A stretch of DNA of 20,133 nt from a virus, in IMG/VR virus record IMGVR_UViG_3300031578_003106, positions 1-20,133 of that record; one strand, written 5' to 3'. Shown piece by piece: positions 1,071 through 18,006 of this stretch; positions within the stretch are counted from its first letter, which is position 1; every line of letters begins with the position of its first letter. The notes beneath the pieces were generated by a model that saw nothing but the letters and a program-made list of their open reading frames with translations, was not told the origin of the DNA and did not search any database. The position numbers were made by a program, and so were the translations under genes.

Positions 1071-1073
1071 TAA

Positions 1074-1406: not shown

Positions 1407-1409
1407 TTC

Positions 1410-2222: not shown

Positions 2223-2227
2223 TGTAT

Positions 2228-2233
2228 CTCCTT
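2228..2233 (-). promoter_or_regulatory. strong ribosome-binding site of the SSB gene
   Basis: Read on the minus strand this is AAGGAG, five bases before ATG 2222. It is among the best Shine-Dalgarno matches in the window. Together with the 43-base gap upstream, it is consistent with high, independent translation of the ssDNA-binding protein. Confidence 0.8.
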
Positions 2234-2265
2234 ATTATCTGTTTTTATTTATTACAAATCAACTG

Positions 2266-2703: not shown

Positions 2704-2715
2704 GAATTTAATCCT

Positions 2716-3177
2716 TTACGGTAATATGGCTCCCAGAATCTCACCCACTAACTTAAATGGAAAAAGAACAACAGCTCTTGTAGTTTTCCATACTTCGTGT
2801 TCAGTTACTTTCTCTGCAAACGAAGGATCTTCATTACGGTCAAGGTTAACAATTTCAAGAGCGATTTGTCTTTCGGCTACTGCAAGATTAGCATCCTTAG
2901 CAACTTCATATTGCATTTGAAGACGACAAATCTCAGCCATTTGTACAACAGACCCTCCAAATCCTGCTCCACCGCCCTGCACGGCTCTAGAACACGCTTC
3001 TCCTATTCCGATAGATAGATATGTCGCAGCGCCACCATCGTTGTCTTCTCGATTATCTACATTTACATTAGTATTACTACTATTATCAACATCACTATTA
3101 TCGTTATTGTTATCACCAGCCATCGCGATTAATGGGAGAAGTAAGATTACTCCTGCGATCCCCAGATTATTTTTCAT
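2716..3177 (-). CDS. exported protein with signal peptide and Asp/Asn-rich linker
   Basis: A 153-aa protein of unknown function. The N-terminus is a classic signal peptide: MKNN, then a hydrophobic core (LGIAGVILLLPLIA), then a likely signal peptidase I site after AMA near residue 20. Residues about 22-48 are a low-complexity Asp/Asn stretch, probably a flexible linker. A Gly-rich, partly helical part follows (YLSIGIGEACSRAVQGGG, then QMQYEVAKDANLAVAERQI), and a hydrophobic tail (VVLFPFKLVGEILGAILP) that could touch or insert in a membrane. C62 and C84 could pair. It overlaps the polymerase stop as ATGA, so it is coupled to polymerase translation, an unexpected place for an exported protein. 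Lysis, superinfection exclusion or envelope modification are possible; none is shown. Confidence 0.75.
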   Translation of the reverse strand: MKNNLGIAGVILLLPLIAMAGDNNNDNSDVDNSSNTNVNVDNREDNDGGAATYLSIGIGEACSRAVQGGGAGFGGSVVQMAEICRLQMQYEVAKDANLAVAERQIALEIVNLDRNEDPSFAEKVTEHEVWKTTRAVVLFPFKLVGEILGAILP

Positions 3178-5786: not shown

Positions 5787-5792
5787 TATTTT

Positions 5793-6023
5793 CTATCCGT
5801 TTCCTCTTTCTTGTAATACTTTTAATGTAATAAATCTTTCTACTACTTTTTCTGGTACTAATTCAGAACAATCAGCACAAACTGAGTTAAGCTTTCTAAA
5901 TATTATTGAGGCAGCAGGGGAATAGGAACCTTGTCTCCCACCACATCCATCATGTCTTAACCATAGACTCCCATCATATATTTGAATAAAAAAATCATCG
6001 ACTCTATAAATAATTTTACGCAT
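5793..6023 (-). CDS. small CxxC family protein, copy 1
   Basis: A 76-aa protein of unknown function and a member of the dispersed small family of this window. It has an N-terminal beta-like part (MRKIIYRVDDFFIQIY), WLRHDGCGG carrying H24 and C27, and then C49-A-D-C52 followed by P58 and the helix EKVVERFITLKVL. The H/C plus CxxC set could bind one zinc ion. It begins 8 bases inside the end of the primase gene and ends 6 bases before polA, so it is cotranscribed with both. The shared pattern with seven other genes, together with its place in a tightly packed operon, is the main support that it is real. Divergence from the other copies is strong, so membership is inferred from pattern rather than high identity. 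Confidence 0.7.
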   Translation of the reverse strand: MRKIIYRVDDFFIQIYDGSLWLRHDGCGGRQGSYSPAASIIFRKLNSVCADCSELVPEKVVERFITLKVLQERGNG

Positions 6024-6861
6024 AAATTAATTCTTTTATTTCTTTTTTAGAGTAATTATCAGGTTGCCCTTTGATTATAATTTCTTGTGCTGGAATACCA
6101 AGTGCTTGTAAGGTTCTAGTTGGTCTAGTATAGTTAGCCCCTTCGTCCCAAAGTATATTCACTTTTTTACACTTTGATCTAAGTATTTGTTTACATTGTT
6201 TATTACTTAAGTAGCTTCCAAAGTTCGTTGTTATTTGTAAATCTTTAAGCCATATAGCATTGAATGTATTTTCAACTAATGTCAGGGTATCCCATTGTGA
6301 TGCTATATCCCAATTAAATAGAAAGTCAGTAGTCTTTACTCCATGACAATATCTATATCTTTTAGCACTCCCCTTAGTAAATCCATTTTCAGCAGGTTCG
6401 GAGCGATCCACGAATCGTCTCACATAGTTTAGCAGAGTTCCACCTTCGTGTACAGGGATTACTATACTGATATCATCAGCCTGAATATCAAACTCAGCAA
6501 TATCTGAAAGTTCTACACCTCTATTAAGAAGACAATCTATTGCCCAAGTATCATTTCTTTCTAGAATAGACCAACACCCTTTAGGTATTGCCACCTCAAC
6601 TGGCCCTTTAGCTTTTGCATTATCAATAGAAGGAATATATCCAGCCATCTCTGGACTGTAACCGATGAGATAGATAAGATCATCAAGTGAGGGTTTCTTA
6701 TGACACTTAGCCTTGTGGCAATATCCTACATTCTTATCAATATTGAAATAGAAATTATCGTATCCACAATAAGGGCAGGGGAACCTCAATTCATTATGGC
6801 TACTATTACTTACTGCAAAATTACCAAGGAGCCAGTGGACTATATCCTTTTTATTTATCAT
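6016..6861 (-). CDS. DNA primase (zinc finger plus TOPRIM)
   Basis: A 281-aa primase that would make RNA primers for the lagging strand together with the DnaB-like helicase. An N-terminal zinc-binding domain is seen: C29-P-Y-C32 and YC48-HKAKC53. The TOPRIM core has its glutamate in LTLVE (E197) and its acidic motif in NILWDEG (D239), with a likely third element near the KGQPDNYSKKE stretch (264-274). The length is short compared with bacterial DnaG (about 580 aa) and near that of phage primases without a fused helicase. The helicase is encoded separately at 9504-10928. The start overlaps the end of the 65-aa gene upstream by 11 bases, with only a weak ribosome-binding site, suggesting coupling. 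The family call is firm from the two domains in order. Confidence 0.88.
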   Translation of the reverse strand: MINKKDIVHWLLGNFAVSNSSHNELRFPCPYCGYDNFYFNIDKNVGYCHKAKCHKKPSLDDLIYLIGYSPEMAGYIPSIDNAKAKGPVEVAIPKGCWSILERNDTWAIDCLLNRGVELSDIAEFDIQADDISIVIPVHEGGTLLNYVRRFVDRSEPAENGFTKGSAKRYRYCHGVKTTDFLFNWDIASQWDTLTLVENTFNAIWLKDLQITTNFGSYLSNKQCKQILRSKCKKVNILWDEGANYTRPTRTLQALGIPAQEIIIKGQPDNYSKKEIKELIYA

Positions 6862-7048
6862 CTCGACTCATTCGTTTAACGTGTGCTATAACTTGAGTAC
6901 GGTGAATCCAATCAGGGCCCGGATCAGAAAGAGCGCCATCAATCATTCGTTTAATATGCCCACATACTCTCTCGAAATTGGAGGTACCTTCGGGATCAGA
7001 ACATAGTCTATTACTAGATACTTCTTTACGAATTTGTGCTAGTGTCAT
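6851..7048 (-). CDS. small hypothetical protein before primase
   Basis: A 65-aa protein that I do not recognise. It is polar and probably mostly helical: MTLAQIRKEVSS, then FERVCGHIKRMIDGAL, then DWIHRTQVIAHVKRMSRDDK. The two lysine/arginine-methionine segments (HIKRMIDG and HVKRMSRD) look alike and may mark an internal repeat. It overlaps the SH3-like gene upstream by 23 bases and primase by 11 bases, so the three are translated together. AGAGG about ten bases upstream of ATG 7048 supports the start. A role with primase is only suggested by position. Confidence 0.6.
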   Translation of the reverse strand: MTLAQIRKEVSSNRLCSDPEGTSNFERVCGHIKRMIDGALSDPGPDWIHRTQVIAHVKRMSRDDK

Positions 7049-7325
7049 TTTCTTTAGCCTCTACTACTTTCTTTTCAATTATAGCATCCATAGGGTCAGC
7101 TTCTAATTCTTCCCATATCCATTTTATTTCAGTTTTACCTCCATGCCCATGAACATTAATAGCATTCTTAATACTTCCATAAATATTAGTGCTACCATTT
7201 TTACCTAACCAACGTATAATACATGTACCGTCGCTGGATTCAAAGACTTCAGCTATTTCAGATCCTTTACCAGAGACACCATGTACATCTTCGTGTCGTA
7301 CTATTGTACCTACTCTTATACTCAT
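7026..7325 (-). CDS. small beta-rich (SH3/KOW-like) protein
   Basis: A 99-aa protein of unknown function. The first 65 residues look like a small beta barrel: MSIRVGTIVRHEDVHG, alternating charged and hydrophobic residues with Gly turns, then TCIIRWLGKNGS. The tail (about 73-99) is acidic and probably disordered. The start MS-x-[R/K]-[V/I]-GTI and the later [I]-x-WL-x-GK recur in the 55-aa product of 9330-9497, so the two may be related. KOW or SH3-like folds often bind nucleic acid or protein, but nothing here proves that. AGGT lies upstream of ATG 7325 at a long spacing. It overlaps the next gene by 23 bases. Confidence 0.6.
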   Translation of the reverse strand: MSIRVGTIVRHEDVHGVSGKGSEIAEVFESSDGTCIIRWLGKNGSTNIYGSIKNAINVHGHGGKTEIKWIWEELEADPMDAIIEKKVVEAKENDTSTNS

Positions 7326-7337
7326 TTAACTTTTTAC

Positions 7338-7652
7338 CTATTTACTCTTCACGATGGCGGCGTCAATCGCAGCGAGCAGGGCTTCGGCTTCGGTGCCGCC
7401 CTGCGCTAGTACGCACCCGTCGATCTCAGCGTGCCACCGTCCACTTTCCAGCTTGCTGACTTCGATCACGCGCTGGTCGGCGGCGAGGATGAAGATGCCC
7501 GTCTCGCCCGCAGGGTGTCTGCCCGTTTTCATCCACCTCCCCACGACGTAGCCTCGGCAGTCTGGGCCATGCTCAGGGCATGGGTTGTCACGCCTCACCC
7601 ATTCGCACGGGCGGATCTCGTCCCTCGGGTCGAGCGGGTAGCGGTCGCTCAC
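7338..7652 (-). CDS. GC-rich cargo gene: small Cys/His protein
   Basis: A 104-aa hypothetical protein in a visibly GC-rich patch (41 of 60 bases at 7381-7440 against about one third GC in its flanks). The N-terminus carries a possible zinc site: C16 (RPCEW), C25-P-E-H28 (NPCPEHG) and C32 (GPDCRG). After that comes a basic stretch (GRWMKTGRHPAGETG), strands (IFILAADQRVIEV, SGRWHAEIDG), and a C-terminal helix (GGTEAEALLAAIDAAIV). The last part resembles the 'aeAllaAi' end of many small phage proteins. The start is GTG 7652, whose GTGA overlaps the stop of the preceding gene. Composition unlike its neighbours points to recent acquisition. A long reading frame on the other strand here is taken as a shadow. 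Confidence 0.65.
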   Translation of the reverse strand: MSDRYPLDPRDEIRPCEWVRRDNPCPEHGPDCRGYVVGRWMKTGRHPAGETGIFILAADQRVIEVSKLESGRWHAEIDGCVLAQGGTEAEALLAAIDAAIVKSK

Positions 7653-7822
7653 GGCTCCTCCCTTTCCAGTGCTTCACGCGCAATCTCTACATTTTGCGCG
7701 CCGATCCACGCGGCCGATCTCACCAGCGGGTTGCATGAGGCGATGCTTTCCAGCGCCGCCCGCAGCCGCTCGTTCTCGGCCTCAAGCTTATTCACGTCGG
7801 CGGAGAGTTCTTTAGCGTCCAT
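7649..7822 (-). CDS. GC-rich cargo gene: 57-aa coiled-coil protein
   Basis: A 57-aa hypothetical protein. Residues 5-30 are a heptad-rich helix (ADVNKLEAENERLRAALES). A short CNP turn follows, and then a second helix (AQNVEIAREALEREEP). This 'leader coil plus EIAREAL tail' pattern is common among small phage proteins of high-GC genomes and has no known role. AAGGTG six bases before ATG 7822 supports the start. It overlaps the end of the preceding gene by 11 bases and its TGA overlaps the GTG start of the next gene (GTGA), so the GC-rich pair is fitted seamlessly into the operon. Confidence 0.65.
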   Translation of the reverse strand: MDAKELSADVNKLEAENERLRAALESIASCNPLVRSAAWIGAQNVEIAREALEREEP

Positions 7823-8027
7823 GTTGCCACACCTTTACATCATAGAGTTTAAGATCAAGTTGAGTATTTTTACTTTTTCCAATCAAAATATCGTGGAGCT
7901 GATTTCGCAGTACCACACAATCTCCCCCCGGTATATTAGGAGTGACTCCCTTAAGCCAGTTATTCTCCAGCACCGTTAGGGCTTCACGCCGGATTCGAAT
8001 GTCTTTCGTCAAACTATTTTTCTTCAT
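7812..8027 (-). CDS. small hypothetical protein
   Basis: A 71-aa protein that I do not recognise. The N-terminal half is basic and helical (KKNSLTKDIRIRREALTVLE), followed by NNWLKGVTPNIPGGDCVVL and a C-terminal half with strands (LDLKLYDVKVW). The upstream sequence has an AAGAAG element about eight bases before ATG 8027. Base composition is that of the AT-rich phage backbone, so it marks the border of the GC-rich patch, whose first gene overlaps its end by 11 bases. Confidence 0.5.
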   Translation of the reverse strand: MKKNSLTKDIRIRREALTVLENNWLKGVTPNIPGGDCVVLRNQLHDILIGKSKNTQLDLKLYDVKVWQHGR

Positions 8028-8030
8028 TAT

Positions 8031-8357
8031 TTAACTTCTTTCTTTATAATAATAATAATAAGGACTAATTGGTTCCGAAATTTCATTATTTAACTTTAAT
8101 AAAGTTCGAATTTTGGTGCCTGCAATTAGAATTTCACTTGTAAATGGTGATGAACAAAGCCTACATGATTCCCAATTACTTTGTGTGAAAAAACATTCTT
8201 TATTTTCAAATAAATAAACCCCTTCAATAGCATTTCGGGCATGGTCCGCAGGGTGTACGTGTCCAATTAGGTCTGAATTTAAACAATATACCCACCCACT
8301 ATCAGATATTTTATATACATCTTCAATAGGAAATCCTTTGTGTTTTTCAAATCTCAT
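8031..8357 (-). CDS. small CxxC family protein, copy 2
   Basis: A 108-aa member of the dispersed family. It has an N-terminal strand region (VYKISDSGWVYCLN), then LIGHVHPADHA with H33 and H35, then C65-R-L-C68 followed by the helix SEILIAGTKIRTLLKLN. The tail is odd: YYYYYKERS, encoded by a tandem TAT (Tyr) tract, read on the plus strand as ATA repeats at about 8048-8062, which could slip. It overlaps copy 3 upstream by 4 bases. H-x-H plus CxxC could make a zinc site. Function is unknown; the common pattern with copy 3 (LIGHVHPAD against YIAHLHPDN) supports shared ancestry. Confidence 0.7.
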   Translation of the reverse strand: MRFEKHKGFPIEDVYKISDSGWVYCLNSDLIGHVHPADHARNAIEGVYLFENKECFFTQSNWESCRLCSSPFTSEILIAGTKIRTLLKLNNEISEPISPYYYYYKERS

Positions 8358-8635
8358 GTATCTGATCTCAACTTGAATAAAGTTATAAGCAGTTTAGATT
8401 GGATAATTTCTTCCGGTGTCATACTTAAATTACATGGCGGACAACATAGTGTTGGTCCAACTGTTGTTCCAAGCGACGTGAGTAGATTATTACCCACTGC
8501 CATGATTTTCGTGTGGTGGATGCTCAGACTATTGTCTGGGTGGAGGTGTGCAATATAATTATAAAACATATTATACCACCAGTTATTATTAATTCTGTAA
8601 AATAGCTTGTATGTAGGGTGCTGTTCAATTTTCAC
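8354..8635 (-). CDS. small CxxC family protein, copy 3
   Basis: A 93-aa family member starting at GTG 8635, with an AAGAGAA element about eight bases upstream. It has the strand region LFYRINNNWWYNMFYNYI, then AHLHPDN with H30 and H32, a middle helix, and a knuckle C64-C65-P-P-C68 followed by P74 and EEIIQSKLLITLFKLRSD. The aromatic NNNWWYN stretch is also seen in copy 6 (KNSWWWYC). A perfect TATAAT here (8570-8575) arises from the codons of this aromatic motif. It is the first gene after the 150-bp gap, and it overlaps copy 2 by 4 bases. Confidence 0.68.
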   Translation of the reverse strand: MKIEQHPTYKLFYRINNNWWYNMFYNYIAHLHPDNSLSIHHTKIMAVGNNLLTSLGTTVGPTLCCPPCNLSMTPEEIIQSKLLITLFKLRSDT

Positions 8636-8785
8636 ATCGTTGTTCTCTTGGTTGTACTGGTTGTTGTTAGTTTAAATTTGAATCGTAAAAGAGAAGAAGA
8701 ATAAGAGAAGATATATAAGTAGTTGTTTAAGAAGATACACTTGTTTAAGGCACAAGGTGGTCTTAGGTCCATAAGCCTTGAAAAT
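8636..8785 (-). other. longest intergenic gap, possible structured RNA leader
   Basis: About 150 bases without a convincing gene, between family copies 4 and 3. Read on the minus strand, the first part can fold: CAAGG pairs with CCTTG, enclosing CTTA paired with TAAG around a TGGACC loop. The second part is a pyrimidine-rich run (TCTTCTCTTATTCTTCTTCT) up to the ribosome-binding site of the GTG start. No U-run follows the hairpin directly, so it is not a standard terminator. A leader, RNase-processing or regulatory role is possible but unproven. Confidence 0.4.
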
Positions 8786-9010
8786 TTATTTACTCCTCAG
8801 TTTATTTAAGAAGCGTGCTTTTTTAATAATTTTTAAATCAAATGCTTGCTTACAGTTAGCACATTTCAGGATATTTATGCTATGAGTATTAATACTTTTA
8901 TTATCAGAGCATAAACAATTAATATGTCCAACCCGAATGTTTGATTGAACAGCACAAATAACAGTATTCCCGTCAGTCCAAATTACCGTAGCGTCCCATA
9001 TAAATTTCAT
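8786..9010 (-). CDS. small CxxC family protein, copy 4
   Basis: A 74-aa protein and the most compact family member. It has strands (MKFIWDATVIWTDGNTVICAV), then VGHINC with H29 and C32, a short spacer, and C50-A-N-C53 followed by the helix DLKIIKKARFLNKLRSK. Its closest relative is copy 5 next to it, where HINC, CxxC-K and IIKKA/VIKKA recur at matching places, so the two arose by tandem duplication. The start overlaps the previous stop as TAATG. The H, C, C, C set is right for one zinc. Basic C-terminal residues could contact nucleic acid, which is a guess. Confidence 0.75.
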   Translation of the reverse strand: MKFIWDATVIWTDGNTVICAVQSNIRVGHINCLCSDNKSINTHSINILKCANCKQAFDLKIIKKARFLNKLRSK

Positions 9011-9360
9011 TAATCTCTAGGCCCCAGGTTTTGTAGTAACATAGCTTTCTTTATAACCTTTGGATCAAATGGGATTTTACATTGGTTACATATATTATAG
9101 TTATGCTGTTCATGAAGCATCCCTTTTAATACATTATATGCAGATCTTACTGACTGACCAGACAGATGGTCTTCCCCACAATTGATGTGAGCAATCATCA
9201 TGCTACGATCTATAAAACTAAAATAGTATATCGCAGTAGTATTGTCCCACCAAATTAAAATTCTGTCCGAATCCATGAAACGGCTTTCGATTTTTTCTCT
9301 AGGGAGAATACCATTTTTTTTCGAACGTGTCAACCCTTGCTCTTCAGTGTCTTTCGACAT
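9010..9360 (-). CDS. small CxxC family protein, copy 5
   Basis: A 116-aa family member. Residues 1-28 are a charged extra N-terminus (MSKDTEEQGLTRSKKNG and on). Then come strands (DRILIWWDNTTAIYYFSF), IAHINC with H58 and C61, a helical spacer, and C91-N-Q-C94 followed by DPKVIKKAMLLQNL. AAGAGG seven bases before ATG 9360 supports the long form, which overlaps the end of the 55-aa gene by 31 bases. An internal ATG (residue 29) just before the conserved part would give a form like copy 4, and a promoter-like element lies between the two starts. Function is unknown. Confidence 0.75.
   Translation of the reverse strand: MSKDTEEQGLTRSKKNGILPREKIESRFMDSDRILIWWDNTTAIYYFSFIDRSMMIAHINCGEDHLSGQSVRSAYNVLKGMLHEQHNYNICNQCKIPFDPKVIKKAMLLQNLGPRD
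9305..9333 (-). promoter_or_regulatory. sigma-70-like promoter match inside copy 5 (weakly supported)
   Basis: Read on the minus strand: TTGACA (9328-9333), a 17-base spacer ending in TGG (extended -10), then TATTCT (9305-9310). Transcription would start near 9298, upstream of the internal ATG 9276, giving a shorter protein that keeps the whole conserved region. It may be a chance match. Confidence 0.3.
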
Positions 9361-9497
9361 ACCAAAGCCTCTTTTCCCTTAAGCTTTCCTGTTAACCAAA
9401 GAATTTTAACTGTTTCCCATTTGCCTGTTCCATTGACTCGTCCCTCCCAATCACCATTGGGGCCACCTAAAAGAATAGTTCCTATTTTATAACTCAT
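9330..9497 (-). CDS. 55-aa SH3-like small protein
   Basis: A short gene in the gap between the DnaB-like helicase and family copy 5. It runs from ATG 9497 to TGA at 9330-9332. The product begins MSYKIGTILLGGPNGDWEGR and continues with a Gly turn and TVKILWLTGKLKGKEALV, ending basic. The MS-x-K/R-x-GTI start and the I-x-WL-x-GK strand match the product of 7026-7325, suggesting a small beta-barrel fold shared by the two. AAGAGA upstream serves as ribosome-binding site. The gene starts 6 bases after the helicase stop and ends 31 bases inside copy 5. Function is unknown. Confidence 0.6.
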   Translation of the reverse strand: MSYKIGTILLGGPNGDWEGRVNGTGKWETVKILWLTGKLKGKEALVCRKTLKSKG

Positions 9498-9503
9498 ATT
9501 TGA

Positions 9504-10928
9504 TTATCTCTTTTTTGATTTTCTTTGTTGTCTTTCTCTAGGAGTTGAGGCCCACTTACTTTTCTCTTCCTCTTCTTCCTCATCCTCAAAAACAGATGAA
9601 TCAATTACATCATTCGTAATACTCATTTTACTTAAGTCACACTCAAGCTCAACAGCCCTACCTGCTCGTCTAGATTGACGCATCTTTAAGGGCACTAATT
9701 TTAAGGCTACTCTATCTGAATTAGGAATATCTACCTGACTCATACCAATTACAGCAGTCGCTTCCTGTAAGTGTCTGATTGAAGCCTGTGCCATAGTCAT
9801 GTCTATGTCAGAACCCTTACTCAGACCGGCTCTATTCGTCTGTGCTGCGGTCCAAATCAACATGTTGTGCCGTTTAGCCAGGCGTACAAGATCCTTCGCT
9901 ACAGCCCCCATCCAGCCCCATTCGTTGTCTCTCTTATACCCAGATAATGAGGGTTTCATTCTCTCCATATAATCAAGTACAATTACATCAGGTTTCCACC
10001 CATGTAAATTAGCCATCTTAGCTAACTCAGCTTCTAATTCATCAGTAGAAATTTCTCTGTTATATTCTGTAATAACAAATCTTTTATTAAGATTATTCGT
10101 CCAATGTCTCTCAAGTCCTTTATACGCTACACCTGGATCATTCATAATCTCTTCTACTGGGGTGCCTGTAATTCGAGCGAGGGCCCTTTCGGTAACTTCC
10201 TCAAGGACTAATTCGTTTGTGATGAACCATACATTCTTTTCTTCAATCGCTGCAATCTTATGTCCAATCACTAATAATAATGCAGACTTGCCGTGTCCGG
10301 TCGGTGCGATCACTACAGCTAATTGTTTTTTTCTTAACCCCCCACCCGTCCAATCATCGAGCACAGTAATATTAGTAGGAATTCTAATATTAATAGGGTT
10401 GAAGTCTGCTGTATCCATTAGATGCTCAATAGCCTGTTGAAGATCCATCGTTCGATCATCCCCAGCATTAGCAAATTGGGACAACCACGATTGAACGTCT
10501 TTTACCATCCCCGGACCATCAAAATCTATTTGTTTCTGATTGAACCCCTGATCTTTTATCATTTCAAGAAAGGATCTTGAAATTGCCACATCCTTGGCTT
10601 GACCAAGTACATAAATCTGTTCAGAACGATCTGCTGATACCTTTTGTAATTCTTCTAATATATCTTTATATCTTAACTCATAAGCATCAGAATCTTTGTC
10701 TTTGAATATCTTATGAAGTGTCACTAATGATGGGGGTTCCCCATTCTTTTTTGTGAACGCATACACCTCAGCTAATATCGGCTGATACTCTGCTCTATTT
10801 AACCATTGGGGTCTAAATATCTGAGAGAATTTCTTAGCATCTTCTGGTCTGCCGGTTAATGATGTTACAAAAATGTCTTCGTCAAAAATACTATTTCTCC
10901 TCATCTCCTGGGGTAAACATAATTTCAT
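9504..10928 (-). CDS. dnaB: DnaB-like replicative helicase
   Basis: Hexameric 5'-3' fork helicase of the RecA/DnaB fold, about 474 aa from this start. Seen: a helical N-terminal domain (about 15-120); Walker A APTGHGKS near 208-215; the NELVLEEVTERALARITG helix near 238; Walker B VIVLDYMER with D319; the sensor-like AAQTNRAG near 361; and an arginine-finger strand KMRQSRRAG near 415. The tail has a run of Glu (EDEEEEEE) then basic residues. The frame is open further up to an ATG at 10979, but that would overlap the previous gene by 89 bases. ATG 10928 has GGA five bases upstream, and ATG 10904 has AGGAG touching it. The start is therefore uncertain. The enzyme would pair with the separate primase. 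Confidence 0.9.
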   Translation of the reverse strand: MKLCLPQEMRRNSIFDEDIFVTSLTGRPEDAKKFSQIFRPQWLNRAEYQPILAEVYAFTKKNGEPPSLVTLHKIFKDKDSDAYELRYKDILEELQKVSADRSEQIYVLGQAKDVAISRSFLEMIKDQGFNQKQIDFDGPGMVKDVQSWLSQFANAGDDRTMDLQQAIEHLMDTADFNPINIRIPTNITVLDDWTGGGLRKKQLAVVIAPTGHGKSALLLVIGHKIAAIEEKNVWFITNELVLEEVTERALARITGTPVEEIMNDPGVAYKGLERHWTNNLNKRFVITEYNREISTDELEAELAKMANLHGWKPDVIVLDYMERMKPSLSGYKRDNEWGWMGAVAKDLVRLAKRHNMLIWTAAQTNRAGLSKGSDIDMTMAQASIRHLQEATAVIGMSQVDIPNSDRVALKLVPLKMRQSRRAGRAVELECDLSKMSITNDVIDSSVFEDEEEEEEKSKWASTPRERQQRKSKKR

Positions 10929-11247
10929 CAATTCCAAAACCCGCAAGCATATCTTTAAGTTCTCTTGCCATTGCTTCAAAATCTGTGGCAGTCTTATCCT
11001 TGGAAACTAATTCATCTAACATAATAACTGGAATCTCTAAATCTATGTTATGTCCATTAATTCTATCTTGTTGATCTTCTTCAGACTCCATAAAGAAAGT
11101 ATGATCGTTAGCACATTTATATGCTGTTACATATTCTGAATATGCTTCTAAATCATACCCATAATCTTCACAAACCAACAACCCAGATGTTTCTTCATTA
11201 TAATCTACAAATTCTTCAACTTCTTTAGAACATACAGGACAGTTCAT
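10891..11247 (-). CDS. small zinc-ribbon-like acidic protein
   Basis: A 118-aa protein of unknown function. It opens MNCPVCSKEVEEF (C3, C6), and a second possible pair lies near C45 and H49 (YKCANDHTFF), which together resemble half-conserved zinc ribbon ligands; C26 is also present. The remainder is strongly acidic (ESEEDQQDR, then a helix FEAMARELKDMLAGFGID). The first codon overlaps the stop of the previous gene by 1 base. It overlaps the helicase start by 38 bases. Proteins of this kind are common in phage replication regions, and no specific role can be read from the sequence. Confidence 0.65.
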   Translation of the reverse strand: MNCPVCSKEVEEFVDYNEETSGLLVCEDYGYDLEAYSEYVTAYKCANDHTFFMESEEDQQDRINGHNIDLEIPVIMLDELVSKDKTATDFEAMARELKDMLAGFGIDEIMFTPGDEEK

Positions 11248-11603
11248 TATAAATACTTCTCAATTAAGTTAGCAATTTGCTTAAAGGTTTTAGGTTTACG
11301 ATCATCCCAAAACTCCCCATCATTCCACTCAGATAATGAGTGTTTACCTACTACCGGGTCGGCATTATCTAATCCCGCCCAATTTCTAACTTTAAATGGT
11401 AAAAGTCCTGCGGTATCATGATATCTATTAAGCTCATTCCACACACCACCGGTTTCTTCTGCGTGAATATTACAAAGAACACCCAAACAACAGAAACTCT
11501 CTTCGCCGGTTTTCTCGTCTACCTGCAATAACTTCTCTCTGCCTTGCTCATATACTCCAGAACGAAGTTCACGTAACCAAATCTTTTTAATTCTTTTGTT
11601 CAT
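11247..11603 (-). CDS. conserved phage protein with CCLGVLC motif
   Basis: A 118-aa protein. I recognise the layout as a widespread phage family of unknown function: an N-terminal W-L-R-E-L-R-S-G-x-Y-x-Q-G segment (9-21), the signature FCCLGVLCNIHAEE near 38-51, and an end with DGEFWDDRKPKTFKQIANLIEKYL in which a 'T-F-x-x-I-A-x-x-I-E' helix is typical. The Cys pair plus a third Cys might hold a metal, but this is not established. It overlaps the UvsW-like gene by 4 bases upstream and the next gene by 1 base. The family has no known activity, so no role is assigned. Confidence 0.8.
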   Translation of the reverse strand: MNKRIKKIWLRELRSGVYEQGREKLLQVDEKTGEESFCCLGVLCNIHAEETGGVWNELNRYHDTAGLLPFKVRNWAGLDNADPVVGKHSLSEWNDGEFWDDRKPKTFKQIANLIEKYL

Positions 11604-13057
11604 GTTATTACTTTAAATCCTTGTTGTTTATAAATTTCAATTCGTTCATTTGATTGTCGCTTCAATGTTTTAGATGAAAGATCCATAAAGTCTCTGAATT
11701 GTAGAGTCTTTTTACCTTTGGAATTCCTCAACCCTCTACCCAGTCTTTGAATAGTATTGATAACAGATTTACCTCCACCCGCAACAATAATAGATTTTAG
11801 TTGTGTATAATCAAATCCCTGGTCAAAGATAGTGGTACACACAATCGCTTCCAGCTTTTTATTACTAAGATCATCCAAAGCTTTCTGTCTAACAGCCTGA
11901 GAATCTTCTCCAATAAGCAGCTTAGTCTTTACTCCCTTTGCGGTGAGAGCACGTTCAAGGATTTTAGCATGTGCTACTTGGGTAGTCAATACGAACAATG
12001 GCTTCGGAAGAATGACGGCCTCTTCTGCTGTAAGCTTTGTTCTAATAGGATTAAGCGTCACCCCCATATCATAGCAATCCGGCCACTTCTCAGGGCACGT
12101 AACTTTCTTTACTTCAATAATCTTGATATTGGCATCAACAAGATAACCTTCTTTAATCAAGGTTGCTGTTTTAACTTCTTTAAGTACGTTCCCTGTGGCC
12201 CCTTGTAAAAGTATATTAGAATACTCATCCTTCATAAATGGTGTAGCTGTAAGGCCCCACCGATAAAAAGCTTTGGGCATATAATCAGAACATTTTACAA
12301 ACCAGTTGCCCCCCGATGACTTAGCTGCAATCTGATGCGCCTCATCAAAAAATACCTGTTGTGTATTAGAAAGTAAGGCTTCGATTTGAGGATCTGCGGT
12401 ATTCCTCATAAGGGTTTGAATAGTTGCTATAGTAATCCCATCTGATTTGGGTGCTATTACTCCATCAAATACTCTACCTACTGTATACCCATATTTTTCA
12501 AATCGTTCTTTAGCTTGCCACGCTAGAGTTTTAAGGTGAACAATAAAAAGAGTCGGCAAGTAACCTGTAGTTTCATACATGGCTACTGCCAACTCAGTTT
12601 TACCTGCCCCAGTAGCTAATTGAAAAATACCACGGGGCCAATAAAGATTTTGAAATTTATTTGTAAGTCCAGCGTTCACCCCTTCAGATTGATAATATCT
12701 GAGATCCATTGAGGTGCTTTGAAGCCGTGGATAAGGGTTGAACCTTTTATCTATTAGACGGGGGAGGGTTTTAGTTTCTCTCCACAATGTATTAAGCACC
12801 ACCGGAAGAAGACCAGTATTAAATTCTCCAGAAGGAGAAATAACATCTACCTTGCCATCCCAGCCATTAACCTTTCTTTTAATTTGAGGATTCTTTTTAA
12901 GAAAAGCAATATCTTTCAAATAAAGCTTATGTGCTTTCATGAATTTTGCACCGGGGGTCATTGTCTTTAATACCCGACGGACGTGTTTATATGCTAATGT
13001 ATCATTATCACAATCAGCTTTCGCAACAGCAAGAACATTACTAAATTCAATATTCAT
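11600..13057 (-). CDS. uvsW: UvsW-like SF2 DNA helicase
   Basis: A superfamily 2 helicase of 485 aa that by family would branch-migrate or unwind recombination and replication intermediates. Seen: an N-terminal domain of about 115 aa, as in T4 UvsW; motif Q-like LRYYQSEGV near 119; motif I ATGAGKT at 148-154; motif Ia-like FIVHLKTLAWQ; motif II DEAH at 238-241; motif III GLTATP near 268-273; motif V TTIFDQGFDY near 408; motif VI QRLGRGLR at 437-444. Length and domain order fit T4 UvsW (about 500 aa). It could instead be a related RadD-type or phage restart helicase. The start overlaps the previous gene by 11 bases. It belongs with RecA, SSB and the UvsY-like gene in a recombination-dependent replication scheme. 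Confidence 0.85.
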   Translation of the reverse strand: MNIEFSNVLAVAKADCDNDTLAYKHVRRVLKTMTPGAKFMKAHKLYLKDIAFLKKNPQIKRKVNGWDGKVDVISPSGEFNTGLLPVVLNTLWRETKTLPRLIDKRFNPYPRLQSTSMDLRYYQSEGVNAGLTNKFQNLYWPRGIFQLATGAGKTELAVAMYETTGYLPTLFIVHLKTLAWQAKERFEKYGYTVGRVFDGVIAPKSDGITIATIQTLMRNTADPQIEALLSNTQQVFFDEAHQIAAKSSGGNWFVKCSDYMPKAFYRWGLTATPFMKDEYSNILLQGATGNVLKEVKTATLIKEGYLVDANIKIIEVKKVTCPEKWPDCYDMGVTLNPIRTKLTAEEAVILPKPLFVLTTQVAHAKILERALTAKGVKTKLLIGEDSQAVRQKALDDLSNKKLEAIVCTTIFDQGFDYTQLKSIIVAGGGKSVINTIQRLGRGLRNSKGKKTLQFRDFMDLSSKTLKRQSNERIEIYKQQGFKVIT

Positions 13058-13766
13058 CTACAGTATTCCGTATCACTTTATATTGCTTTGTTGATATTAT
13101 CTGCTTTGTTTGTTCAACGATCCGCTCTCGCCCAGAGTCTAGCGCATCCAAATCCTCAACGCCAGCAACGTTCTTTGACTGTTTTTCAATCAAGTCGGGA
13201 AAGCTATTATTATTTTCTTCAATAATTTCATACTGTGAAGGCATCCAATCTTTAAATGGTTTATACCTCATATTGGTAGCAATATCTTCCATCTTTAGAT
13301 TGAGCATAAACTTAATACGTCTAATCTTCTCAACCGTTACCACATACTCGGGGTTCTGTTCAATTCGCTGTGCCTCAGCCTTAACTACTGTTTCTATTAA
13401 AATCTGAATAGTGTCTGCAAAGGAATCAATATCGGGGATATCCTCTCGTCTAGTCTGAGTCGGCTTATACTTACCTTCACACTCAGTACAAACAGTAACT
13501 ACATTATCTTTATGAATCGCACCGTTGTGTTCCAGTGCGGTATAATACCTAAAATGCAAAGCATTTAATGTCTTTTCAGCTCGGATATTTAATGGGGTGC
13601 CACAGTATACACACTTACCTCCATATTTTTGGTAGATTTCATGTGCCTCAGCCGAACTAAACCTGTGTGGGATGCCAAATTTAATTGTGCGTTTGGTATC
13701 TGTATTAAATTTAAGGAGCGCCTTCTTAAAAGAATTGGCACCCCGTGTACGTGTTTTGGGTGTCAT
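13047..13766 (-). CDS. HNH-like zinc protein near UvsW
   Basis: A 239-aa protein. Residues about 36-100 look like an HNH/treble-clef unit: KCVYCGTP (C52, C55), then TALEHNGAIHKDNVV (H80, N88), and TVCTECEGKYK (C93, C96). The C-x2-C ... H ... N ... C-x2-C order is that of zinc-stapled HNH nucleases, though the first catalytic residue is E79-H80 rather than the usual D-H. The remaining 140 residues are helical and charged without known motifs. Its place next to UvsW and the overlap of 11 bases suggest a resident DNA-processing nuclease rather than a homing gene. ATGA overlap joins it to the gene before. Activity is inferred from motifs only. Confidence 0.65.
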   Translation of the reverse strand: MTPKTRTRGANSFKKALLKFNTDTKRTIKFGIPHRFSSAEAHEIYQKYGGKCVYCGTPLNIRAEKTLNALHFRYYTALEHNGAIHKDNVVTVCTECEGKYKPTQTRREDIPDIDSFADTIQILIETVVKAEAQRIEQNPEYVVTVEKIRRIKFMLNLKMEDIATNMRYKPFKDWMPSQYEIIEENNNSFPDLIEKQSKNVAGVEDLDALDSGRERIVEQTKQIISTKQYKVIRNTVDEY

Positions 13767-14017
13767 GTAGTATTAATTATTTTTAATATTGTTTCTACTT
13801 TTTGCCGAACATCTGAAGGAATATCCTTACCCCAATCAGGCCGAGGCCAAGCTGATCCGGCGAACGTGCCCGTCCTTCGTGTTTTAAAATAACGTATTAT
13901 ATATGTATATGTATCAAGCACTACTTGATACTGTGATACATTTTTATAATATATCATTGCAGATGTATTGGTAGATTTGGTATACTTTGTTACCTGTCTA
14001 ATTGTCCAATCCGTCAT
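13763..14017 (-). CDS. small protein, tandem paralogue 1
   Basis: An 84-aa protein of unknown function. It begins MTDWTIRQVTKYTKSTNT and appears beta-rich (MIYYKNVSQYQVVLDTYTYIIRY), with a basic Gly/Pro loop (TRRTGTFAGSAWPRPDWG), and a C-terminal helix IPSDVRQKVETILKI. The neighbour 14014-14310 shares the DW[ST]I opening, strand pattern and IPxx[V/I]RxKVExILK ending, so the two are tandem duplicates. Both junctions are ATGA overlaps. The bases 13798-13812 also occur exactly in the end of the HNH gene at 14336-14350. Confidence 0.65.
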   Translation of the reverse strand: MTDWTIRQVTKYTKSTNTSAMIYYKNVSQYQVVLDTYTYIIRYFKTRRTGTFAGSAWPRPDWGKDIPSDVRQKVETILKIINTT

Positions 14018-14310
14018 ATCCCACTCACCTTTAATATAAACTCTACTTTATTCCTAATATAAAAAGGTATTTCATTATTATGTGCTCTTCTACCAACCGT
14101 ATAAGTCCACACATTATTTACAAATACATCATTCGTTTTATAAAACCAAACCCCGCTAGTTTGAAGGAGTACAAACCCAGAACTTGCAAAATGTGTAGGA
14201 TTTATAGTATAACTACCTAGTGCTATATACTTTATTTTATCTTTATATGTAATAAGGATACTTTTATTAGGAGTCGCTATCTTTATACTCCAATCAGGTG
14301 CTTTACTCAC
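14014..14310 (-). CDS. small protein, tandem paralogue 2
   Basis: About 98 aa from GTG 14310. This start is chosen because it puts SKAPDWSIKIA in line with the MTDWTIRQ start of the paralogue and leaves only four bases after the HNH stop. The frame is open further up to a TTG at 14367, but that would lie inside the HNH gene. The protein has strands (SILITYKDKIKYIALGSYTI, then GFVLLQTSGVWFYKTND and VWTYTVG) and ends IPFYIRNKVEFILKVSG. It is beta-rich with a short C-terminal helix, and its role is unknown. Confidence 0.6.
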   Translation of the reverse strand: MSKAPDWSIKIATPNKSILITYKDKIKYIALGSYTINPTHFASSGFVLLQTSGVWFYKTNDVFVNNVWTYTVGRRAHNNEIPFYIRNKVEFILKVSGI

Positions 14311-14314
14311 CCAA

Positions 14315-14866
14315 CTATTCGATTCCTTTTTCTTTCTTTTTGCCGAACATGTCTGCGAATTCTCCAACGTGTGTCCACCTCTGCATTCGAATAATTTTAC
14401 TAATAGCCGACTGAGACACTCCGAATATCTCAGCTAATTCAGTTTGATTCAATTTCCCGTGGTCATATACTCTTCGAATCTCATTAATCTCACGTTCAGT
14501 GAGCTTTTTCATGCCATTCTTTTCGCCGCGCACCTGTCTATTCTTTTTCTCTTTATCGTGATTATTGTCATAGACGGTGCCTAATTCAAGATGATCCGGT
14601 CGGACACACGGGGGGTTATCACACCTATGACAGATGCAATTCTCTGGTGGAATAGGACCATTCTGTAGCTCCCAAGATAATCGGTGAGCTTTAAAAGTCT
14701 TTTTAAAATCTTTTCTAGAGACGCCGATTCTTCCATAGCCATCTTTGTCCCGACTACCTTGCCACTCCCAACAAGATTTGGCATCTTCTACAACTTTAAC
14801 CTTTCCCCAAAACTTATCTAATTTTGGTGTTGGGCCTTCTGCATTATTTATTTCTTTTATTTTCAT
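14315..14866 (-). CDS. HNH homing-endonuclease-like protein with HTH
   Basis: A 183-aa HNH_3-type protein. Seen: CWEWQGSRDKDGYGRIGVSR (32-51), AHRLSWELQNGPIPPENC (60-77), the core CHRCDNPPCVRPDHLELGT near 79-97 with its paired cysteines and DH, then DNNHDKEKKNR. This is the well-known phage free-standing homing-nuclease pattern. The C-terminus has a resolvase-like helix-turn-helix (LTEREINEIRR, then QTELAEIFGVSQSAISKII) ending QRWTHV, likely for target recognition. It overlaps the next family copy by ATGA, so it is embedded without disturbing the operon. HNH_3 genes commonly spread between phage genes, so this is probably a mobile gene, though its cleavage site is not visible. Confidence 0.88.
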   Translation of the reverse strand: MKIKEINNAEGPTPKLDKFWGKVKVVEDAKSCWEWQGSRDKDGYGRIGVSRKDFKKTFKAHRLSWELQNGPIPPENCICHRCDNPPCVRPDHLELGTVYDNNHDKEKKNRQVRGEKNGMKKLTEREINEIRRVYDHGKLNQTELAEIFGVSQSAISKIIRMQRWTHVGEFADMFGKKKEKGIE

Positions 14867-15156
14867 ATCAAATTTAATTTCCCCATTGTTTCATATTTTT
14901 TTTCTAACTTCTTGAATTTATCAGGAAGTTTTAAACGACACGCTGCGTACTGGCAGTAATAATTGTCTAAATAATTAAAATCAAAACCATCTTTGGTCTT
15001 GTGACAGTGTAGAAACCCCATCACGGCGCTGGGCTCGTCACTCCTAAAGAACTCTCCGCCGACGTGAATAAGTGAATATGTTGACCCCAGACAATACCAC
15101 CACCAGCTATTTTTTATTTGTATATTTTTATACACCCCGTTTATTATTATTTTCAT
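14863..15156 (-). CDS. small CxxC family protein, copy 6 (divergent)
   Basis: A 97-aa divergent family member. It has strands (MKIIINGVYKNIQIKNSWWWYC), then SLIHVGGE with H31, an extra HCH (50-52), and a wider knuckle C68-Q-Y-A-A-C73 followed by LPDKFKKLEKKYETMGKL. The WWWY and IH parts match copies 2 and 3. The cysteine spacing is x4 rather than x2, so zinc binding may differ. It follows the NUMOD4 gene by a 12-base gap, without a clear ribosome-binding site, and overlaps the HNH start. Confidence 0.6.
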   Translation of the reverse strand: MKIIINGVYKNIQIKNSWWWYCLGSTYSLIHVGGEFFRSDEPSAVMGFLHCHKTKDGFDFNYLDNYYCQYAACRLKLPDKFKKLEKKYETMGKLNLI

Positions 15157-15168
15157 ATTAAATTTATT

Positions 15169-15714
15169 TCAATCCAATGGTAAAAAAGGTTCAATCTCTT
15201 CCCAGCGTTCAGACTTAGAAATCCGAGTAATTGTAGCTGGGGAAATATCATATTGTTTAGCTATCCGTGCCTTGACACCACGAATATTTAAAGAATCCAA
15301 GAGCGTTTGTTTGATCTCTTTAACCTGTTCAATAGTGAGCTTAGCTGCATTCTTTTCTTTAACTACACCAATTTCTTTTAAGTTATACACCGAACAATCA
15401 AACACATCGTCGCTCTTATATACGACACGGCCCCCTCGGCGCGGCTTAAGCCATGCGTCTGCTACAAGATACTTCACATCAAAAGACTTAGTAACCCCCT
15501 CTAATGTTCGTAGCTTTACCTTAGGATGTGAGTGACTCTTATTTGCATTTACCTTTAATAGCTTAGGAGTCGTTTTATATTTTCTTTTATTAGGAACACC
15601 AGCACGCCGATGCCAATGCCTTTTAATCCGACCCATATTAGATACAGAGTATATCCCTTCATATCCTTTTATAGGTTTCCATCTCTCTTTACTTTTCCAA
15701 TTAAGTGGTTTCAT
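15169..15714 (-). CDS. NUMOD4 protein with degenerate HNH and HTH
   Basis: A 181-aa protein. It begins with a NUMOD4 motif (RWKPIKGYEGIYSVSNMGRI near 12-31), which in homing nucleases binds DNA. A central part aligns with the HNH region of such nucleases (FDVKYLVADAWL, then SVYNLKEIG), but the canonical N-H-x-D-G-N segment reads VVYKSDDVFDCS, so catalytic His and Asn are missing. The C-terminus is a helix-turn-helix (IEQVKEIKQTLL, then ARIAKQYDISPATITRI) ending SERWEEI, parallel to the end of the HNH gene at 14315-14866. It is probably a nuclease-derived DNA-binding protein, possibly inactive as a nuclease. ATGA links it to the preceding gene. Confidence 0.8.
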   Translation of the reverse strand: MKPLNWKSKERWKPIKGYEGIYSVSNMGRIKRHWHRRAGVPNKRKYKTTPKLLKVNANKSHSHPKVKLRTLEGVTKSFDVKYLVADAWLKPRRGGRVVYKSDDVFDCSVYNLKEIGVVKEKNAAKLTIEQVKEIKQTLLDSLNIRGVKARIAKQYDISPATITRISKSERWEEIEPFLPLD

Positions 15715-16013
15715 TTATACTCTAATTTCCATAAAAAATAAGCTTTTTTAAGCAGCTTTTCGGGTGTCTGTTTATCACATGCTACACACTTTTTATAGTG
15801 ATAATCAGACACCCTCCATCCAATTGCATGTATGCTATCTTCATGAATGTGGTCAAGTAAATACGGAAATGTTAATTCCATATCTTCTTGAAGAAGTGCC
15901 GCTCTCATAGCTGGCCGAAGGAACAGATATTCTTTATTCAATATAATAGCACCCATGCGTAGTTCTTTTTCAAGGGTTCTGGCACCAACACCAGTCAGTG
16001 TGTGTCTTGTCAC
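15711..16013 (-). CDS. small CxxC family protein, copy 7
   Basis: A 100-aa family member starting at GTG 16013, which overlaps the previous stop as GTGA, with AGGA eight bases upstream. From residue 21 it reads GAIILNKEYLFLRPAMRAAL, then a His-rich part (LLDHIHEDSIHAIGWRV), then C76-V-A-C79 followed by PEKLLKKAYFLWKLEYK. Copy 8 matches along the same length, including the WRV tripeptide before the knuckle and LKKA[YH]F, so these two form a closer pair than the others. The N-terminal 20 residues come from the edge of the GC-rich patch. Function is unknown. Confidence 0.72.
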   Translation of the reverse strand: MTRHTLTGVGARTLEKELRMGAIILNKEYLFLRPAMRAALLQEDMELTFPYLLDHIHEDSIHAIGWRVSDYHYKKCVACDKQTPEKLLKKAYFLWKLEYK

Positions 16014-16189
16014 GAGGCGTATCCTATACGCTCTAGGATCGCTCTAGCTTGGGCCGATTGATCCTCGTGGCACGGGCATAGGCGCTCGATCGGAACGTCC
16101 TTCTCGTGGGCCTCTTGTGATAGATGCTCGGTCAGACACATGAGAACGTCACGCAGCGATCCTGCTAGCTCTAGCTCTAGTTTGCTCAT
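16010..16189 (-). CDS. GC-rich cargo gene: 59-aa helical protein
   Basis: A 59-aa hypothetical protein. It is helical at first (MSKLELELAGSLRDVLMCLT), with CPCHE near residues 38-42 and a second helix SAQARAILERIG. A strong ribosome-binding site GAGGTG lies five bases before ATG 16189, and the TGA overlaps the GTG start of copy 7. The start of the gene has short tandem CTAGCT-like repeats (16163-16180) behind the LELEL string. Composition is far more GC-rich than the phage backbone, which suggests import. Confidence 0.62.
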   Translation of the reverse strand: MSKLELELAGSLRDVLMCLTEHLSQEAHEKDVPIERLCPCHEDQSAQARAILERIGYAS

Positions 16190-16263
16190 TTCGTCACCTC
16201 AGCGGCTACCCACGCGGGAGCCGTGATTGGGGCGCGACTCACACGCGCGCCGTCGGGGATAGG

Positions 16264-16503
16264 TCAGACAGAAGATCGAACCCACCTTTGGTCTTCCATC
16301 GCGGAATCCATAGCATCCCGGAGCGACTGTCCGGGCCTGCACCGGATTAGATGCACGCAACTATAATCTTCACCATCGTGTTTTTCCGTCGCGCTTGTTG
16401 TCGGCAAGGCAACACTCGACGGGTTGGGTCCAGCGTGCTGTTCGGTAAACCAGTCGAGCCGCTCCTTATCAGTCGGTGATCGGAATCTGTCAGACTTCAC
16501 CAT
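16264..16503 (-). CDS. GC-rich cargo gene: 79-aa hypothetical protein
   Basis: A 79-aa protein that I do not recognise. I take ATG 16503 (MVKSDRFRSPTDKERLDWF) as start because GAGGT lies four bases upstream, although the frame is open to 16527. Features seen are polar: TEQHAGPNP, SCVHLIRCRPGQSLRDAM and DQRWVRSSV. After its TGA the same frame stays open for 25 codons and ends as ATGA on the start of the next gene, so the TGA may have truncated a longer protein. It overlaps the gene before by 14 bases. Confidence 0.55.
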   Translation of the reverse strand: MVKSDRFRSPTDKERLDWFTEQHAGPNPSSVALPTTSATEKHDGEDYSCVHLIRCRPGQSLRDAMDSAMEDQRWVRSSV

Positions 16504-16708
16504 ATCTACCTCGCATCTCATATACATCTTTAATTACATGCAAAACACATTCAAGCCGATTGATAGGAAACCCACCAACAATTTCATCGTCTACAACAAG
16601 AATAAACCTCTGCCTATCCTTATTAAAATAAAGAGTTCCCGTACCACAATTCATTAATTCAGAATGGGCGATCCGAATAAACCCTTTAGGGATTAGTGTT
16701 GTACTCAT
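16490..16708 (-). CDS. small hypothetical protein
   Basis: A 72-aa protein without known family. It is probably alpha/beta: GFIRIAHSELMNCG, then TLYFNKDRQRFILVVDDEIV with two likely strands, and the helix PINRLECVLHVIKDVYEM. It has no CxxC knuckle, so I do not place it in the family, though the I-A-H segment is reminiscent. The start overlaps the stop of copy 8 as ATGA and its end overlaps the GC-rich gene by 14 bases. Its composition is that of the backbone. Confidence 0.55.
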   Translation of the reverse strand: MSTTLIPKGFIRIAHSELMNCGTGTLYFNKDRQRFILVVDDEIVGGFPINRLECVLHVIKDVYEMRGRYGEV

Positions 16709-17136
16709 ATATTATTTAGTTTCGTAATAAAATGTGCCTTCTTAAGCATTTTAGGATCGGCGGATTCGTAGCAAGATTGACATTTATTAACTTGAGAGTT
16801 GTCAACCCTCCAGAAAAAATGCGCAATATCATGCACTTCAGGGTGATAGTGGAGCAATAAGAATGCTGCTGTAACCTCGATAAGATTTGTACGAGGGCTT
16901 GCTGTTTGTAATATATAAAGTCTCTGAACAGTCGGAGTTTCTAAAATATAATTATTTCCTAAATAAATATAACCAAGATCCTTTACGTCCCGCCCTTTTG
17001 TTTTACTCAGTAGATCTTTTATCTCTAAACCAACCCCATCCTTCAAGGACTCGATGGAATAAAGATTCTGGCTTTTCTGTGTCTGAGAAGTGGTAGTGAC
17101 TTGCTCCCCAGATTCTAACTCTTCCCCAATAGACAT
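16705..17136 (-). CDS. small CxxC family protein, copy 8
   Basis: A 143-aa family member from ATG 17136, which has GGAG eight bases upstream. Residues about 1-55 are polar (SIGEELESGEQVTTTSQTQ and on) and lie in the 134-base overlap with the phospholipase A2-like gene. The conserved part starts LGYIYLGNNYILE and continues with a His-rich LLHYHPEVHDIAHFFWRV and C119-Q-S-C122, followed by ADPKMLKKAHFITKLNNI. Copy 7 matches across this part. I see no ATG, GTG or TTG start in frame just downstream of the overlap, so either the overlap is real or a rarer start is used. The ATGA end couples it to the next gene. Confidence 0.68.
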   Translation of the reverse strand: MSIGEELESGEQVTTTSQTQKSQNLYSIESLKDGVGLEIKDLLSKTKGRDVKDLGYIYLGNNYILETPTVQRLYILQTASPRTNLIEVTAAFLLLHYHPEVHDIAHFFWRVDNSQVNKCQSCYESADPKMLKKAHFITKLNNI

Positions 17137-17434
17137 AAGGAATACTCCATTGCTCCCACTTATTTGCACCCTGTAATTTTAATACTAGGGCGAGATTTCG
17201 TCGGAGTATTTGATCTGACTCTCTTCTTCCGGCCCAATTTGGTCCCTTAATAGAATTCCCGTAGTGGAAATCGTGTATAACACACGCGGGCCAAAGATCA
17301 TAATATCTTAAATAGTCTGGGCTACAACTACAGCCATCACACTCAAAACCCTTTACCTCAGGTCTTGGACCTTCTAATTTTAACCAATGTTCTGCTGGAA
17401 AATGGCGATCTTCGCCTGATACTCTGAATTTCAT
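17003..17434 (-). CDS. phospholipase A2-like HD-motif protein
   Basis: A 143-aa protein, first gene after the perfect sigma-70 promoter. Residues 32-40 (CDGCSCSPD) resemble a Ca-binding-loop region, 50-59 (ACVIHDFHYG) hold the H54-D55 pair of the phospholipase A2 active site, and SDQILRRNL near 73-81 supplies a later Asp (D74) on a helix. SIPYVYWGRVRIWGAS follows. The order loop, C-x2-H-D-x2-Y, then Asp is also seen in small phage proteins of unknown role, so enzyme activity is a hypothesis. No signal peptide is visible. The last 45 codons overlap copy 8. GGAGG eight bases before ATG 17434 is a good ribosome-binding site. Confidence 0.6.
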   Translation of the reverse strand: MKFRVSGEDRHFPAEHWLKLEGPRPEVKGFECDGCSCSPDYLRYYDLWPACVIHDFHYGNSIKGPNWAGRRESDQILRRNLALVLKLQGANKWEQWSIPYVYWGRVRIWGASHYHFSDTEKPESLFHRVLEGWGWFRDKRSTE

Positions 17435-17761: not shown

Positions 17762-18006
17762 TATAAATAATTCCCATCTAATTTAACGTCAGGTTTTTTC
17801 TCTTCTGGCGGAGCCCCCCCGTGTTTGAAGAGGTGTTCTAATTCTCTGGGGACTTCCATATAACCACCCCCAGGCATAAGAGGATTCTTACGCCATTTAA
17901 TGCCACTCTCATCCTCATTTTCTTCTTGACCAAATCCATATCCGTAAATCTTTGCAACAATTATAACCAATAATAGGATAATTATTACATCTGCTATTGG
18001 GATCAT
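17761..18006 (-). CDS. small membrane-anchored protein
   Basis: An 81-aa protein with one N-terminal membrane segment (about residues 4-21, ADVIIILLLVIIVAKIYG). An acidic stretch follows (GFGQEENEDESG), then a Pro/Gly-rich soluble part (NPLMPGGGYMEVP), and a charged tail with PPEEKKPDVK. There are no charged residues before the hydrophobic segment, so topology is unclear. It overlaps the sigma factor stop as ATGA. Its role is unknown; it might act on the host membrane. Confidence 0.68.
   Translation of the reverse strand: MIPIADVIIILLLVIIVAKIYGYGFGQEENEDESGIKWRKNPLMPGGGYMEVPRELEHLFKHGGAPPEEKKPDVKLDGNYL

Follow-up and report, generated by a model that had tools for sequence, protein, structure and literature searches.

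Why would a tailed phage keep, scattered among its replication genes, so many small genes whose products share one layout? The question is raised by the IMG/VR record IMGVR_UViG_3300031578_003106, a complete 20-kb record of 20,133 nucleotides (hereafter the window) covering part of the genome of an uncultured tailed phage. A first-pass annotation, made from the letters alone, had noticed eight small genes in it, here called copies 1 to 8, and had proposed that they form an undescribed phage protein family. Judged by profile comparisons within the window and across related phages, the eight genes are members of one family, related by descent. The family is specific to one lineage of uncultured tailed phages with genomes of ~119.5 kb, in which it forms a multigene family of about 10-37 copies per genome. 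Its members are probably small metal-stabilised proteins that may act on the host cell early in infection.

Layout of the eight copies

All eight open reading frames (ORFs) are found where they had been placed, on the minus strand and inside a block of phage replication genes (Table 1). Copy 8 has an alternative start, its product counting 154 amino acids from the GTG at 17169 or 143 from the in-frame start at 17136. A histidine and a C-x2-C knuckle occur in eight of eight copies, with the C-x4-C spacing already noticed in copy 6. In the first pair, the second ligand is a cysteine in some copies (HINC, HDGC) and a histidine in others (HVHP, HLHP, HIHE, HYHP). In copy 6 (HVGG) it is absent or displaced.

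Across the family, the constant elements are H-x(1-3)-[C/H], CxxC, usually a proline, and the C-terminal helix. Small ORFs lying between the core genes of related phages show the same layout, with tryptophan-containing strands preceding these elements. The histidine and both cysteines are invariant in the family alignments A7 and A8, and both ligand pairs are kept in 64 of the 65 copies of the two large relatives described below (genomes A and B).

Evidence for common descent

In a database of the eight products, BLAST expectation values (E) were 4e-11 for copies 7 and 8, 2e-7 for copies 4 and 5, 8e-6 for copies 4 and 8, 4e-4 for copies 2 and 3 and 6e-4 for copies 4 and 7. A leave-one-out test was then applied, in which a profile was built from seven copies and the left-out copy was ranked among 141 ORFs of that phage. 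First rank went to seven copies (E 5e-9 to 0.5) and second rank to copy 3, the values for copies 1 to 8 being 0.0045, 9e-4, 0.7, 1.5e-7, 5e-9, 0.47, 1.6e-6 and 3e-7. Copy 3 is the weakest of the eight. Since the individual scores of copies 3 and 6 are weak, these two are placed in the family by layout and rank.

Relatives were not recovered when single window copies were used as queries, the copies being too divergent, and the DnaB-like helicase was used as a marker instead. The helicase alone retrieved three contigs at ~50% identity, and an alignment of it retrieved 18 viral contigs, two of them 119.6 and 119.5 kb long (genomes A and B). A third relative, genome C, is a 119.6-kb contig with the guanine-cytosine content of the window. 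It lies in a metagenome-assembled genome (MAG) labelled Deltaproteobacteria bacterium OFTM19, a label that comes from binning only. The replication genes of the window are common to the 18 viral contigs and the MAG contig; contigs L009-L013 have only a distant helicase in common with the window and hold no family copies. A literature search for the family and for these samples turned up no paper on either.

A first profile, built from only the window copies, had no significant match in the relatives searched at that stage, and the link between window and relatives became clear only through the larger family and the third genome. There, window-only and relatives-only profiles converge on one run of short genes at 48.9-50.5 kb (best E 3e-5 and 2e-7, respectively). 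Conversely, a profile built from 44 small ORFs of the relatives, with no window copy included, was run on the 89 window ORFs; ranks one to seven all went to the copies and the one remaining copy came ninth, an outcome with a chance probability of ~1e-10. Copy 1 was matched at E 2.5e-5, and copies 2, 6 and 3 ranked third, seventh and ninth of the 89. In controls, the final profile matched none of 555 ORFs from unrelated contigs and this phage's other contig, none of 650 shuffled copies and none of 81 minus-strand ORFs. Zinc knuckles arise repeatedly by convergence, and the weak scores of copies 3 and 6 would suit unrelated small CxxC proteins that merely resemble one another; the leave-one-out and cross-phage ranks, the link to the third genome and the lack of any false positive in the controls make this very improbable. 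The first-pass annotation had allowed that its pattern would be chance if profile comparison failed to connect the copies. Ranks of first or second for all eight, weak in E for copies 3 and 6, and the tests across phages support the shared ancestry it had proposed.

Two cysteine-less ORFs at 13763-14017 and 14014-14367 (minus strand) were considered as degenerate copies and rejected, the full profile giving them no score. They are alike (E 1.5e-4), have a family-like size and a C-terminal helix and lack CxxC; one of them ranked eighth with the relatives-only profile.

Copy number and arrangement in related phages

Amplification within one genome proved larger than could be seen from the window. 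Genomes A and B hold 31 and 34 copies at a strict threshold, all on one strand, and 33 and 37 with the final profile. The third genome holds at least 10 with the final profile, plus further short genes of the same type nearby. The order of the core genes is largely kept across relatives (terminase, array, AAA, sigma factor, UvsW, ligase, RtcB, DnaB, primase, PolA, RecA, SbcD, SbcC), and the number of copies between them varies. One relative has a copy at L007:6965-7294, just before PolA, the same place as copy 1. The array itself holds 16 of the 31 and 14 of the 34 copies in the two large relatives. It runs head-to-tail and, in genomes A and C, opens the rightward strand beside divergent structural genes; in genome B it stands at the matching place. 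From its gene content, this array-bearing strand is taken to be the early strand. As the window lacks the corresponding region, a further array is predicted beyond position 20133, before the sigma factor. A contig continuing the window to the right was sought and none was found.

In the third genome, ATGA is the sequence at eight consecutive stop codons, a sign of translational coupling. A promoter scan upstream of the array of that genome performed no better than shuffles. Nearly all copies at L050 9098-10726 (minus strand) of the same genome end in Leu-Leu, which may be functional or a by-product of the ATGA overlaps.

An independent contig, L003, represents the same phage, with 99.99% identity over window positions 1-7456, and extends the window by 28 kb. 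It also carries copy 1, and its additional sequence holds no further copies. The L003 sequence stops at window position 7456, close to genes at 7338-7822 whose product (MSDRYPLDPRDEIRPCEWVRRD...) looks compositionally unlike its neighbours. A recent insertion near this place possibly broke the L003 assembly.

Divergence and selection

Between genomes A and B, 24 copies are reciprocal best hits and were treated as orthologous pairs. Their median identity is 62% vs 78% for other early genes, and their pN/pS is 0.47 vs 0.28. The dN/dS lies between 0.21 and 0.55 per pair in all 24, with the ligand residues kept. Conservation between orthologues varies along the protein: the CxxC and helix are 73% identical, the N-terminal part 65% and the loop that separates the ligand pairs 56%. 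By their dN/dS, identity and pN/pS values, these are maintained genes that evolve quickly: the orthologues are under purifying selection yet evolve faster than core genes. A reciprocal partner is missing for 7 of the 31 and 10 of the 34 copies, which indicates that the genes turn over.

Such gain and loss between related genomes, together with the homing-type HNH/NUMOD4 genes that adjoin copies in the window, might suggest neutral or selfish duplications of little function, but this is scarcely credible given dN/dS values well below 1, ligands kept in all 24 pairs, and family proteins that carry no nuclease signature (none of the eight copies matches HNH models).

Predicted fold and comparison with known families

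For one relative, AlphaFold with family alignments gave three strands and a C-terminal helix at a predicted local distance difference test score (pLDDT) of 78. Copy 5 was predicted with the same elements, strands at 33-37, 42-47 and 54-58 and a helix at 100-112 (mean pLDDT 69, predicted template modelling score 0.57). A metal site is suggested by the four conserved Cys/His positions. Four ligands in two pairs, as expected of a zinc ribbon, are recognised by sequence alone, incompletely in copy 6, and each protein is probably a small zinc-ribbon-like module. Foldseek searches against the PDB and viral models gave no significant fold match (best E 1.2 and 0.9), and none to a solved zinc ribbon. 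Because the models are of medium confidence, this is weak evidence against a zinc ribbon.

No family of PHROG, Pfam or NCBIfam covers these proteins, barring isolated weak matches of single members; no significant match was found in 50,697 phage records, and a PDB sequence search returned chance-level matches only (PARP zinc finger, E 0.27). These results, with the lack of a fold match, bear out the proposal of an undescribed phage protein family.

Among the known systems closest in layout are the Lar-like proteins (PF14354, PHROG 6795), small zinc-ribbon-like proteins of phages and prophages that, like the family, have two ligand pairs followed by a helix. A match to PHROG 6795 was obtained for one copy of genome A (E 2.8e-4, calculated for that genome) and for no other copy, and the first pair is H-x-C/H in the family and CPxCG in Lar. 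Membership of the Lar-like restriction alleviation family PF14354 was rejected, as no match passed the cut-off in the window, genomes A and B or the MAG of the third phage: no copy of the window, A or B was matched at E 1, and the MAG gave sub-cut-off matches only, none of them in the array. The relative L008:1635-1955 matches PHROG 1081 over 28 of 67 positions (E 6e-4); however, it is the only one of 79 scanned family members to do so, the match covers the first ligand pair only, and PHROG 1081 has no assigned function. Zinc ribbons and fingers in general, such as Zn_ribbon_HMPTM, zf_C2H2_13 and zf-CHCC, also place two Cys/His ligand pairs on strand turns, but all matches to them are below cut-off and each concerns a single family member.

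Possible functions

The reading favoured here is that the family proteins are zinc-stabilised binders serving host takeover or counter-defence, a quite possible role held with a little less than even confidence; for counter-defence it is the genomic setting that speaks. Binding to host proteins is suggested by the constant scaffold with variable loops, the many copies, their turnover, the early promoter-proximal array and the probable counter-defence neighbours. Among these, NAMPT with a NUDIX/nucleotidyltransferase-like protein, RtcB and the HD-domain hydrolase also encoded on the early strand of genome A fit counter-defence by established knowledge. More tentatively, the 10-37 paralogues could constitute a diversified library of mini-binders stabilised by metal, each with its own host target, co-deployed from the promoter-proximal array at the start of infection. 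Each probable module consists of an N-terminal strand pair, often with tryptophan, then H-x(1-3)-[C/H] and a variable-length loop, and then CxxC followed by proline and a C-terminal helix of ~12 residues. The metal would hold the common scaffold, and each copy would gain a different partner through variation in its N-terminal strands, its loop and its outer face. Produced early in infection, the copies could bind host defence, nuclease, transcription or translation factors and block or redirect them, and the phage would retain and reshuffle this large set as an arsenal for host takeover and counter-defence. The isoelectric points (pI) are 6.0-6.4 in genomes A and B, about the proteome median, and 8.5-8.8 in the window and the third genome. 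The family is thus neither consistently acidic, like a DNA mimic, nor consistently basic, like a nucleic-acid binder, which was counted in favour of host-protein binders.

Several observations weigh against this reading. The pN/pS of the copies is above that of core genes but far below 1 and so lends no support to positive selection, and small unrelated early genes evolve fast too (pN/pS 0.38). Searches of PDB and viral models matched the fold to no known inhibitor. Half of the copies lie outside the array, between replication and repair genes, a position that replication or transcription accessory roles fit equally well. With many copies between replication genes and beside the sigma factor, transcription regulation and replication accessory roles are the main rivals.

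As regulators, the proteins would bind nucleic acids or RNA polymerase and time phage transcription with the sigma factor of the same region. The zinc-ribbon-like layout is common among transcription factors, the window and its relatives encode a sigma factor in the same block, the copies are dispersed between gene modules, and those of the window and the third genome are basic. However, the copies of the two GC-rich genomes show no such charge, dozens of highly divergent regulators in 119 kb would be unusual, and DksA/TraR, Zn-ribbon and sigma/anti-sigma models were not matched above cut-off, so that this role is rather unlikely. Accessory subunits of the replication and repair machinery, each partnering the enzyme next door, would explain why copies lie between UvsW, ligase, RtcB, DnaB, primase, PolA, RecA and SbcD, often with overlapping start and stop codons. 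But the copies at each place vary in number and identity between genomes where the enzymes are constant, and up to 16 copies lie in an array far from these enzymes, making this explanation decidedly unlikely.

Whatever their role, 31-37 divergent, selected copies in a 119-kb phage genome make up about one tenth of its genes, or more, in a family absent from the family libraries and cultured phages searched. Were the copies host-directed, they would amount to an existing set of small inhibitors, and pull-downs could reveal their targets (defence systems, polymerase, nucleases). The mini-binder library, if real, would mean that a bacteriophage uses a multigene family for counter-defence and host takeover. 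Large eukaryotic DNA viruses, African swine fever virus among them, likewise have multigene families in which divergent paralogues stand in tandem, are gained and lost, and are often directed at the host; no sequence relation to them is claimed, and here the carrier is a bacteriophage and the proteins are small and of metal-binding type. The profile and alignments of this analysis allow the family to be found and tested in other phages.

Neighbouring genes

The sigma-70-like factor is a conserved neighbour of the family in all relatives covering that region. The other genes are collected with the eight copies in Table 1.

Table 1. Positions of the family copies and of neighbouring genes (window positions unless a contig is named)
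Feature	Position	Strand	Description
Copy 1	5793..6023	-	76 amino acids; HDGC...CADC...LVPEKV; between primase and DNA polymerase
Copy 2	8031..8357	-	108 amino acids; HVHP...CRLC
Copy 3	8354..8635	-	93 amino acids, GTG start; HLHP...CPPC; 4-base overlap with copy 2
Copy 4	8786..9010	-	74 amino acids; HINC...CANC...FDLKIIKKARFLNKL
Copy 5	9010..9360	-	116 amino acids; HINC...CNQC...FDPKVIKKAMLLQNL
Copy 6	14863..15156	-	97 amino acids; HVGG...CQYAAC (C-x4-C)
Copy 7	15711..16013	-	100 amino acids, GTG start; HIHE...CVAC...TPEKLLKKAYFLWKL
Copy 8	16705..17169	-	HYHP...CQSC...ADPKMLKKAHFITKL
Family A DNA polymerase	3174..5786	-	Directly downstream of copy 1; Pfam DNA_pol_A, E 1.5e-59
DnaB-like helicase	9504..10979	-	Pfam DnaB_C, E 4e-16
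HNH_3 and NUMOD4 homing-type endonuclease genes	14315-14866, 15169-15714	-	Profile matches
Phospholipase A2-like motif protein	17003-17434	-	143 amino acids; CVIHDFHYG; PF09056, E 1e-4; PHROG 1158, E 1e-7
Phage sigma-70-like factor	18003..19217	-	PHROG 351, E 3e-25
NAMPT and NUDIX/nucleotidyltransferase-like gene, adjacent (third genome)	L049 11256-12587 and 12970-13857	-	
RtcB RNA ligase (genome A)	L037 4522-5748	+	59% identity to the RtcB proteins of Erwinia and Pseudomonas phages

The DNA polymerase combines an N-terminal uracil-DNA-glycosylase domain and a 3'-5' exonuclease domain in one chain. The two homing-type endonuclease genes lie directly downstream of copies 6 and 7, respectively, and overlap their stop codons by four bases. 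The gene for the phospholipase A2-like motif protein overlaps the start of copy 8, and the PHROG 1158 family that it matches is annotated as tail assembly chaperone. In genome A, RtcB is flanked by family copies, and in the third genome the NAMPT and NUDIX/nucleotidyltransferase-like pair resembles phage genes for the reconstitution of nicotinamide adenine dinucleotide (NAD+).

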